Below are positions 32,241-52,790 of a DNA stretch of 64,000 nucleotides, in pieces (position 1 is the first letter of the stretch; every line of letters starts with the position of its first letter). The translations under genes were made by a program, and so were the position numbers. The notes beneath the pieces are model-generated. The model was not told the origin of the DNA and searched no databases. It worked only from the letters and a program-made list of their open reading frames with translations. This stretch comes from Dechloromonas denitrificans (GTDB lineage Bacteria; Pseudomonadota; Gammaproteobacteria; Burkholderiales; Rhodocyclaceae), in NCBI RefSeq assembly GCF_001551835.1, contig NZ_LODL01000013.1:231336-295335 (forward strand), given 5' to 3'.

Positions 32241-33492
32241 GCGCTTCTGCGGGACGGTGCCAGGGGGCGACTTTGACGAGCAGGAGCATGCCCGGCAGGG
32301 CTAGGGCAGCGCATAACCAGAAAAAGTTGAGCCAACCCAGCGATTCGACCAGCCAGCCCGCCGAGGCGTTGATGAAGGTGCGCGGAACGGCGGCCAGGCT
32401 GGTGAACAAAGCCATTTGCGTCGCGGTATAGGCAGGGTGCGTCGAGCGGGCAATGAAGGCGACGAAGGCGGCCGTACCCAAACCGACGCCCAGTGCTTCC
32501 AGGCCGATGACAAAGGCCAGCGCGAGGCGTTCGCCGACGCCAATGCTGTCGTAATGGCCCTGGGCGGCCAGCCAGGCGAAGCCGAAGATCGAGACTAGTT
32601 GGACGACGCCGAACAGCCACAAGGCCCGGTTGATGCCCAGCCTGATCATCCACAAGCCACCGAGCAGGGCGCCAATGACCGCTGGCCAGAGGCCAGCATG
32701 CTTGGCGATCAGGCCGATGTCGGTCTTGGTGAAGCCCATGTCGAGGTAGAACGGGGTAGCCAGCGCGGTGCACAGGCTGTCACCGAGTTTGTAGAGAAAG
32801 ATGAAGCCGAGGACCAGTGCGGCGCCGCGCCAGCCTTGCCGGCCAATGAACTCGTGGAAAGGTTCGGTGACCGCCTGGCGCAAGGTCTTCGGCACTCCCT
32901 TGATGTGCGGCTCGCTGACCAGCCAAGCCATCGCCATACCGGGCAGCATGAAGGCGCCGGTGATCCAGAAGACCTCGTTCCACGGCAGGCGGTCAGCCAG
33001 GATCAGCGACAGCGAACCGGGAATCAGGCCAGCGATCCGGTAAGCGTTAACGTGTACTGCATTGCCGAGGCCGAGTTCGTGGTCGTCGAGAATTTCCCGC
33101 CGGAAGGCGTCGACCGCAATATCCTGTGTCCCGGACAGGAAGGCAAGCAGGGCCGCCAGCCAGAGGATGGGCCAGATGCTTTCCTTCGGATCGAGACCGC
33201 CGAGGAAGCCGATGGCGAACAGCAGGCCGACTTGGGTGACCAGCATCCAGCCCCGACGGCGGCCAAAGCCGGGCACGCTGAAACGATCGAGCAGCGGCGA
33301 CCAGAGGAATTTCCAGGTGTAGGGGAACTGGATCAGGGCAAAGAAGCCGATCGTTTTGAGATCGACGCCTTCGCTGCGCAGCCAGGCCGGCAACAGGTTG
33401 AGCAGCAGGTAGAGCGGCAGGCCGGAGCTGAAGCCGGTGAAGATGCAGATCAGCATCTTCCTGGTGAGCAGGGGCCCGAGCCAGGCTGGCAT
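32224..33492 (-). CDS. ampG: AmpG-type MFS permease (muropeptide transporter family)
   Basis: 422 residues, about 12 membrane helices, with the AmpG-like opening ICIFTGFSSGLPLYLLLNLLPAWLR and GTQDIAVDAFRREIL. AmpG imports GlcNAc-anhydroMurNAc peptides released during wall turnover. The assignment is by sequence family; a related MFS solute permease is possible. Its start overlaps the metW stop by one base. Confidence 0.85.
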   Translation of the reverse strand: MPAWLGPLLTRKMLICIFTGFSSGLPLYLLLNLLPAWLRSEGVDLKTIGFFALIQFPYTWKFLWSPLLDRFSVPGFGRRRGWMLVTQVGLLFAIGFLGGLDPKESIWPILWLAALLAFLSGTQDIAVDAFRREILDDHELGLGNAVHVNAYRIAGLIPGSLSLILADRLPWNEVFWITGAFMLPGMAMAWLVSEPHIKGVPKTLRQAVTEPFHEFIGRQGWRGAALVLGFIFLYKLGDSLCTALATPFYLDMGFTKTDIGLIAKHAGLWPAVIGALLGGLWMIRLGINRALWLFGVVQLVSIFGFAWLAAQGHYDSIGVGERLALAFVIGLEALGVGLGTAAFVAFIARSTHPAYTATQMALFTSLAAVPRTFINASAGWLVESLGWLNFFWLCAALALPGMLLLVKVAPWHRPAEALSHPG

Positions 33493-34103
33493 CAGCGGGC
33501 GCGCGTCAGGCGGTAGACCGCCAGGCTGCCGAGGAAATTGACTTCCCGGTTGTCGGTATTGGCGACGATATTGCCTTGTTCGTCGAGGACGTGGCGTTCA
33601 CGGATGATCAGCCCCATTTTTTGGCAGAGGGCTTCGAAATCGAGCAGCGTGAAGAAGCGGACGTTGGGCGAGTCGTACCACTGGTAAGGCAGGTCTTCGG
33701 AAACCGGCATGCGGCCGTCAAGGACCGAGCGCAGGTTTTTCCAGTAGGCGAAATTCGGGAAGGAAACGACCGCTTCGCGGCCGACCCGCAGCATCTCGAG
33801 CAGGATGCCCTCGGTGTGGCGCACCGTTTGCAAGGTGCGCGACAGCACGACATGATCGAAGGCCTGGTCGGCGAACTCGTCCAGGCCGCGTTCGAGGTTG
33901 CCCTGGATGACATTGATCCCATTCTTGATCGCAGCGAGGATGTTGCTGTCGTCGATTTCGACGCCCCAGCCTTGTACACCGCGCGTCTCGATCAGGTGCT
34001 TGAGCAGCGTGCCATCGCCGCAGCCAAGGTCGAGAACGCGATGGCCCGGCTCGATCCAGGCGGCGATCAGGTCAAAATCGGGGCGCCCCAGGGTATGCGT
34101 CAT
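33492..34103 (-). CDS. metW: Methionine biosynthesis protein MetW
   Basis: 203 residues, SAM-methyltransferase fold with [14 protein letters not shown] as motif I. MetW accompanies MetX in many proteobacteria and helps its acyltransferase activity. It overlaps metX by 4 nt (ATGA). Confidence 0.93.
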
Positions 34104-35224
34104 AGCTTGATATTCCGCAGGTAGGCATCGACCACGCCATGGTAATGGGCGTCGTCCATCAGGAAAGAGTCGTGGCCGAAATTGAGGTCGATTTCCGCGT
34201 AGGAGACATTGCGCCCGTTGGCAAGCAGGGCGGCGACGATTTCCTTCGAACGGGCCGGGGTGAAGCGCCAGTCGGTGGTAAACGAAGCGATCAGGAAATT
34301 CGCCTGGGTACGGGCCATGGTCGCCGTCAAATCGCCGCCGTCCTCGCGCGAGGGATCGAAATAATCGAGCGCCTTGGTCATCAGCAGGTAGGTGTTGGCG
34401 TCGAAATAGCCGGCGAATTTGTCGCCCTGGTAGCGTAGGTACGATTCGACCTCGAATTCGACGTCGAAACCGAAGGAAAAGGCACTGTTGCGCAATTCGC
34501 GGCCGAATTTCTCACCCATCTGGTCGTCGGACAGGTAGGTGATGTGACCGAGCATGCGGGCCAGGCGCAGGCCGCGCACTGGCCGGGTGTTGTGTTCGTA
34601 GTAGTTGCCGCCGTGGAAGTCCGGATCGGTCAGGATGGCCTGGCGGGCGACGTCATTGAAGGCAATGTTCTGCGCCGACAGCTTGGGGGCGGCGGCAATC
34701 ACAATGGCGTTGCGGACCCGCTCGGGGTAGGTGATGCTCCAGCGCAAGGCCTGCATGCCGCCCAGGCTGCCGCCCATGACCGCCGCCCAGCTATCGATGC
34801 CGAGTTGGTCGGCCAGCCGGGCCTGGGCATGGACCCAGTCATTGACGGCGACGATCGGAAAATCGGCACCCCACGGTTTGCCGGTCGCCGGATTGAGCGA
34901 GGACGGGCCGGTCGAGCCATGGCAGCCGCCGAGGTTGTTGAGGCCGACGATGAAGAATTTGTCGGTATCAAGCGGACGACCGGGGCCGACGATGTTGTCC
35001 CACCAGCCGATGTTGTCCGGCTGCTCGGCATAGTGCCCGGCAATGTGGTGGTGGCCCGACAAGGCATGGCAGACGAGAATGGCATTCGACTTGGCCGCGT
35101 TGAGCGAGCCGTAGGTTTCATAGACCAGATCGTAGGCGGGCAGAACCCCGCCACTGCGCAAATGCAGCGGCTGGTCGAAGTGGGCGCGCTGTGACTTGAC
35201 GGCGCCGACGGATTGTCCTGGCAT
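34100..35224 (-). CDS. metX: Homoserine O-acyltransferase MetX
   Basis: 374 residues, alpha/beta-hydrolase fold. The nucleophile elbow is [16 protein letters not shown]-type [18 protein letters not shown] and [10 protein letters not shown] carry the Asp and His of the triad. It acylates homoserine in the first committed step to methionine; whether acetyl or succinyl is used cannot be decided by eye. It is directly downstream of a SAM-II riboswitch. Confidence 0.94.
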
Positions 35225-35238
35225 GCTGTTCCTGAAAA

Positions 35239-35286
35239 CAAAAAACCCAGTGGCGTTGAAGAAGGCTTCCTAAACGCGAACTGGGT
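35239..35286 (-). terminator. Attenuator-like intrinsic terminator in the metX leader
   Basis: On the minus strand CCCAGT pairs with ACTGGG (35285-35280 with 35251-35246) and GCGTT with AACGC inside it, followed by six T. It lies between the SAM-II aptamer and the metX ATG, 15 nt before the gene, so it must be bypassed for metX expression. Confidence 0.8.
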
Positions 35287-35290
35287 GGTT

Positions 35291-35345
35291 CCCGTTTTAG
35301 CTGTATTTATGTGGCGCCCGCAATCAGAGCTCAAATCGGCGCGGC
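35291..35345 (-). ncRNA. SAM-II riboswitch upstream of metX
   Basis: On the minus strand the leader has P1 strands GCGCC (35342-35338) and GGCGC (35318-35314), a GAUUUGAG-containing loop with AUUGCGG, and the conserved 3' segment AUAAAUACAGCUAAAACGGG. This matches the SAM-II core: GAUUU and AUUGC in the loop, UAAAU then AGCUAAAA, and a terminal GGG. SAM-II binds S-adenosylmethionine and turns off methionine synthesis genes. Confidence 0.88.
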
Positions 35346-35451
35346 TGATGTCTTTCCAGCGTGTCGGTGACAATACCGAGCGGGCCGGGAAAAGTCAATT
35401 AAACAGGGCCGCCCTGCGCAGCGCGGTAGCTTTGTGAAGTTTTGTTAATAT

Positions 35452-44894: not shown

Positions 44895-46805
<1,911 letters not shown>

Positions 46806-52551: not shown

Positions 52552-52594
52552 GGCCGGCACTTTAGGTGATTGCGCCCCCAACCGGCAAGCCGGA

Positions 52595-52755
52595 TAATCC
52601 GGGCCGATTCGATAAAACGGAACACGGTGCAAATCCGTGGCGGGCCCGCCGCTGTAATCGGGGACGGATGTCGCGACAGACCACTGCCTATGGGGAAACA
52701 GACCCGGCGGGAAGGTGCGGCAGACGGCTGATCCGAGAGCCAGAAGACCTATCGT
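52595..52755 (+). ncRNA. Cobalamin riboswitch controlling cobT-cobS
   Basis: The plus strand has CGGAACACGGTGCAAATCC, GCCGCTGTAATCGGGGACGG, a B12-box variant ACCACTG (52680-52686, with A where G is usual), GGCGGGAAGGTGCGGCAGAC and the 3' end GAGCCAGAAGACCT. The ~300-nt gap between cobU and cobT is taken by this and the hairpins below. Confidence 0.92.
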
Positions 52756-52790
52756 TTCAGTTTGGGCTGGAAGCCTGTGGACAGGGCTTC

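Follow-up and report, generated by a model that had tools for sequence, protein, structure and literature searches.

The closest described relatives of the leader studied here are the SAM-II riboswitches, modelled in Rfam as RF00521 (SAM_alpha; Corbino et al. 2005, PMC1273637), and the metXZ element. Published surveys describe most SAM-II riboswitches as transcriptional (PMC6061858, PMC2258182, PMC1273637), and one of them already names the beta-proteobacteria for this class (PMC2258182). Leyn et al. 2014 found SAM_alpha only in the alpha-proteobacteria (Rhizobiales and Rhodobacterales), and described as new an element that lies before metXW or metZ in beta-proteobacteria and consists of a pseudoknot and a terminator, which they called metXZ (PMC4239095). 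Our literature search retrieved no paper joining the metXZ element with SAM-II.

We analysed a stretch of 64,000 nucleotides of the Dechloromonas denitrificans genome, hereafter the window. On its minus strand, a leader of about 140 nt (approximately 35363-35225) precedes metX-metW. The features of the locus, in the direction of transcription and with the basis of each in brackets, are the following.

35370-35398, minus strand, predicted sigma-70 promoter TTGACT-17-TATTGT (consensus scan)
35344-35360, minus strand, small hairpin P0, GCUGG..UCAGC, directly 5' of P1
35342-35289, minus strand, SAM-II aptamer pseudoknot
35338-35342, minus strand, P1 5' strand GCGCC (covariation, 101 distinct aptamers)
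35337-35333, minus strand, GAUUU element (sequence)
35330-35337, minus strand, U-rich loop L1, GAUUUGAG (nearly invariant in alignment A1)
35320-35329, minus strand, P2 5' strand CUCUGAUUGC (pairs with 35301-35291; P2a covaries)
35324-35320, minus strand, AUUGC element (sequence)
35314-35318, minus strand, P1 3' strand GGCGC (covariation)
35302-35313, minus strand, loop L3, CACAUAAAUACA, with conserved AUAAAU (AAAU conserved)
35310-35291, minus strand, SAM-II 3' core AUAAAUACAGCUAAAACGGG (sequence)
35291-35301, minus strand, P2 3' strand GCUAAAACGGG, common to the antiterminator (GCUAA invariant; P2 pair counts)
35288-35300, minus strand, antiterminator 5' arm CUAAAACGGGAAC (swap test and folding)
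35270-35281, minus strand, antiterminator 3' arm GUUCGCGUUUAG, within the terminator 5' half (swap test and folding)
35245-35286, minus strand, intrinsic terminator hairpin, -18.8 kcal/mol (predicted fold)
35235-35245, minus strand, U-tract UUUUUUGUUUU (sequence)
35229-35233, minus strand, Shine-Dalgarno AGGAA, outside the terminator hairpin (sequence; unpaired in the predicted fold)
34100-35224, minus strand, metX, homoserine O-succinyltransferase (NCBIfam NF047916, 679.6 bits, cut-off 560)
33492-34103, minus strand, metW (NCBIfam TIGR02081, 248.8 bits, cut-off 189.5)

The SAM-II parts that a preliminary description had read in this leader, i.e. both P1 strands, the GAUUU and AUUGC elements and the 3' core, are all present. 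The separate hairpin that it reported also exists, but is larger than the 6+5 bp then given: a 7-bp outer stem (ACCCAGU/ACUGGGU) encloses two 5-bp inner stems and is followed by U6-G-U4, so that the terminator with its U-tract spans 35286-35235. A simple terminator scan skips this hairpin, whose loop exceeds the loop limit of the scan. Given the predicted promoter, transcription would start near 35363, and a motif in the promoter region, ATTGACTTTT..CTCGGTAT.GTC, is conserved among relatives. P0 is a conserved, covarying small hairpin in the Dechloromonas/Azonexus group: a hairpin scoring at least 8 occupies its site in 98% of 49 relatives versus 24% of shuffles, and its arms change in step (GCUGG/CCAGC, GUCGG/CCGGC, AGUCCA/UGGACU).

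We then considered whether the aptamer belongs to SAM-II. RF00521 matches the leader with 22.6 bits (E = 0.0063, 501 bases searched), its highest-scoring match anywhere in the 4.24-Mb genome (E = 0.013). Because 22.6 bits is below the gathering cut-off of 36, Rfam run with default settings on the window misses the SAM-II leader and returns only two cobalamin riboswitches (46598-46785, minus strand; 52588-52770, plus strand), both above their gathering score. In the preliminary description a score under the cut-off was to count against SAM-II. The score is indeed under it, but the cut-off of 36 reflects a model centred on alpha-proteobacteria and a lower score does not refute membership. In a phylum-wide scan, RF00521 scores run from roughly 40-88 bits in alpha copies to 22-39 bits in beta/gamma copies with no gap between them, and two beta/gamma copies exceed the cut-off (36.2 and 39.2 bits); a tandem copy from a third genome, at 40.4 bits, brings these to three and the beta/gamma range to 22-40 bits. 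Reciprocally, a covariance model that we built from 56 beta copies (R1) picks up alpha SAM-II at 14-21 bits in whole-model alignment.

The helices of the pseudoknot covary. Across 101 distinct aptamers, four of the five P1 pairs have changed on both sides (GCGCC/GGCGC, UCGCC/GGCGA, UUGCC/GGCAA, CCGCC/GGCGG, GCGUC/GACGC) and 98.8% of the cells are paired, counts that lean towards the model since the class-wide alignment was fitted to one that includes P1 but not P2. In P2a two pairs have changed on both sides (variants CUC/GGG, UC/GA, GAC/GUC), while the UUGC/GCUAA pairs of the P2 pseudoknot are invariant. The covariation score in the same set of aptamers is 0.137, versus 0.048 in shuffled data and at most 0.050 with the strands slid. 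Close relatives alone show zero double changes in P1 or P2; their P1 invariance comes partly from the search pattern, and the test is informative only with the class-wide set. In the window itself, pair 19-48 of P2 is an A-A and P2a contains one G-U pair. The equivalents of the ligand-site residues U11, U21, G22, C43 and U44 are invariant in alignment A1. U11, U21 and U44 are the residues that contact SAM in the crystallised metX SAM-II riboswitch (2QWY). Loop L1 is expected to form a triplex with P2 and to contact SAM, a role taken over from the SAM-II structure and from SAM-V/SAM-II comparisons. About 70 of 80 related loci have this leader upstream of metX.

The best match in the genome, the continuum of scores, the covariation and the conserved ligand-site bases bear out the SAM-II identity proposed earlier, and from sequence we assign the leader to this family with high confidence. 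Its ligand would be SAM, as in the family at large. The invariance of the equivalents of U11, U21 and U44, the RF00521 scores that bridge to alpha SAM-II and the presence of metK among the regulated genes argue against a separate RNA class, i.e. a metXZ element merely similar to SAM-II that would respond to another ligand (homocysteine, methionine or SAH, for instance). That reading can draw on the score under the cut-off and on Leyn et al. 2014, who called metXZ novel and whose Rfam scan placed SAM_alpha only in Rhizobiales and Rhodobacterales, and we consider it very improbable.

The relatives are Dechloromonas/Azonexus and other Rhodocyclales; the MetX of D. hortensis is 99% identical. R1 has matches in 180 of the 321 genomes sampled from the class. 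Among 105 matches, BLAST identified the next gene as metX in 26 cases and as metK in 13; the remaining ones, whose sequences were read by eye, are mostly metZ-like, plus MetF-like, MetH-like and some unknowns. A weak R1 match of 15.3 bits elsewhere in the window (6722-6664) was taken as chance.

Some copies depart from this simple layout. SAM-II aptamers occur in tandem at L258:96-253, L231:1501-1654, L128:1501-1668, L265:1485-1637, L267:1567-1727 and L273:186-363, where the first aptamer has a terminator and the second, of another subtype, has none and precedes the ribosome site. Several tandems precede genes without an obvious methionine role: an AAA-type ATPase (L128) and small unknown proteins (L265, L267, L258). 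One genome (G632, loci L265-L268) has 10 SAM-II model matches; four of them, on inspection, are tandem units and form two nearly identical pairs, a pattern that would fit spread by duplication. Other copies carry an extra hairpin in L3, between P1 and P2 (L257:1221-1319, L260:1318-1405, L261:149-237, L262:148-224).

The terminator is conserved together with the aptamer. Downstream of 88 of 105 aptamers there is a terminator-like hairpin, versus 11% in shuffled sequence; without the metK-like subtype, the count is 87 of 95 type-1 aptamers. Terminator sequences vary, yet their 5' halves complement the P2 3' strand of their own leader. In most leaders GCUAAAGCG pairs with CGCUUUAG of the terminator; the divergent tails GCUAAACAG and GCUAAAGACG are matched in their own terminators by CUGUUUAGC and CGUUUUUAGC, respectively. 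When we swapped terminators among 35 leaders with distinct tails, the mean pairing energy was -13.70 kcal/mol for own pairs, -11.56 for swapped and -7.59 for shuffled ones, and none of 10000 permutations reached the own-pair mean, in a test that leaves some shared ancestry in. Two other pairings were set aside. The P1 3' strand UUGCGGGC with terminator GUUCGCG gives -10.86 for own versus -10.81 for swapped pairs (4089 of 10000 permutations), and for an anti-P1 pairing of GCCGAUUU with AAAUACGGC, most Dechloromonas-type copies have A, T or C at the centre of the latter strand.

In the window, the antiterminator pairs 35300-35288 with 35281-35270 (-10.7 kcal/mol) and shares bases with P2 as well as with the terminator. 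Folding of the nascent RNA gives it a probability of 0.95-1.0 while the 3' end lies between 35275 and 35255; with the aptamer bases constrained to their bound state, this probability is 0.15 or less. From 35247, where the 3' arm is out, the terminator wins whether the aptamer is held or free. The antiterminator co-variation and this constrained and nascent folding make aptamer and terminator interdependent, and they uphold the preliminary description in placing the two in series and in suggesting transcriptional control. That description had presented such control as a departure from a family that usually occludes the ribosome site. The surveys state the opposite (PMC6061858, PMC2258182, PMC1273637): since SAM-II riboswitches are mostly transcriptional, a terminator such as the one found here is typical.

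These patterns have to be weighed against a terminator that merely sets a constant level of read-through, uncoupled from the aptamer. In Sinorhizobium meliloti, metA has a terminator downstream of its SAM-II aptamer, and no coupling between the two is predicted (PMC9373788); the window terminator, too, always wins at equilibrium, as independence would have it. The swap test on the 35 distinct leaders, in which none of the 10000 permutations reached the own-pair mean, and the divergent tails matched in their own terminators make this explanation most unlikely. The two-layer switch of the preliminary description would have SAM govern both termination and ribosome access: we give it hardly any credence because, even if bi-mechanism tandems exist in relatives (L258, L265, L267, L128, L273 and L231) and are described in PMC9481103, the window leader has a single aptamer (one strong match at the locus) and AGGAA lies downstream of the U-tract, unpaired in the predicted fold.

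We conclude that the leader is, very probably, a SAM-II antiterminator/terminator switch that turns metX-metW transcription off at high SAM. At low SAM, the P2 3' strand (35300-35288) would pair with the terminator 5' half (35281-35270) as this emerges, and the antiterminator so formed would let RNA polymerase read on. At high SAM, the ligand would lie between L1 and P2 and lock the P2 3' strand, leaving the terminator (35286-35245) to form and transcription to stop at the U-tract. The leader thus probably shuts transcription when S-adenosylmethionine is plentiful, an OFF direction suggested by the SAM-II family. At equilibrium the terminator (-18.8 kcal/mol) beats the antiterminator (-10.7 kcal/mol), and therefore the switch must act during RNA synthesis, which is usual for transcriptional riboswitches; its control would be kinetic rather than by equilibrium.

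The same genome carries, outside the window, a divergent SAM-II-like aptamer 55 nt before metK (G000:C21:117171-117227, i.e. L149:1501-1557, minus strand), which R1 matches with 28.9 bits (E = 6.6e-6). Its P1 is UUGCC/GGCAA and its P2a GAC/GUC. A weaker second match of this kind occurs in most complete genomes of the genus; we read 20 of these copies and another two, which stand before metK where checked. The copies inspected have no terminator downstream. Upstream of the start codon they have a hairpin whose GCUC could pair with the Shine-Dalgarno GGAGC, a lead rather than a result.

Another Rfam family overlaps these leaders. Ten of the 13 matches of RF02424 (Bp2_287, "Burkholderia sRNA Bp2_Cand287_SIPHT") coincide with SAM-II aptamers on the opposite strand, all matches here being under its 70-bit cut-off (for example, G512:C1:47861-47988, G714:C2:379711-379836 and G472:C1:388242-388370). 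A candidate behind this family comes from B. pseudomallei, where it was detected by RT-PCR and assigned to a place upstream of methionine genes (PMC3521395); RT-PCR as described there leaves the strand unfixed. RF02424 seems to have been built on the antisense strand of these SAM-II leaders.

The metX-metW leader is a genuine transcriptional SAM-II riboswitch of an ordinary kind, from a clade that the reference model covers poorly. On balance we lean, with some reserve, towards a wider picture: a large beta/gamma SAM-II clade mostly missed by Rfam, with a terminator-coupled type before metX, metZ and related genes and a divergent, possibly translational metK type, which would place two points of SAM metabolism under SAM-II control in this genus, and with RF02424 as the antisense of the first type. 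An RNA element reported as new in 2014 gains an identity, SAM-II, and the coupling of the metXZ terminator to its aptamer is explained. These findings indicate that Rfam under-detects the beta clade; it also seems to file one member on the wrong strand, and the annotation of methionine regulation in beta-proteobacterial genomes would change accordingly.

Like RF00521, the window leader is an H-type pseudoknot with P1, the L1 GAUUU and the UUGC, AUAAAU and GCUAAA cores; methionine genes lie downstream, the promoter lies just before P1 and, as in many members, a terminator follows P2. Alpha copies, read by eye, also have a P2 3' strand that pairs with the 5' arm of the terminator. The leader differs from RF00521 by its shorter, G+C-rich P2, its near-constant P1 (GCGCC/GGCGC), its beta-proteobacterial host and its score under the cut-off; P0 is an extra of this genus. 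In the SAM-II/SAM-V and SAM-II/SAM-II tandems (PMC9481103, PMC6061858) the first aptamer also works through a terminator, but the window has a single aptamer without their translational second stage. The window leader matches the metXZ element (PMC4239095), an identity that rests on genes, taxa and description: both lie upstream of metXW/metZ in beta-proteobacteria, and both have a pseudoknot of conserved regions and then a terminator. Unlike here, the metXZ element was not identified as SAM-II, and its antiterminator was assigned to conserved regions 3 and 4, which we take to be the P1 3' side, whereas covariation in our leaders points to the P2 3' strand.
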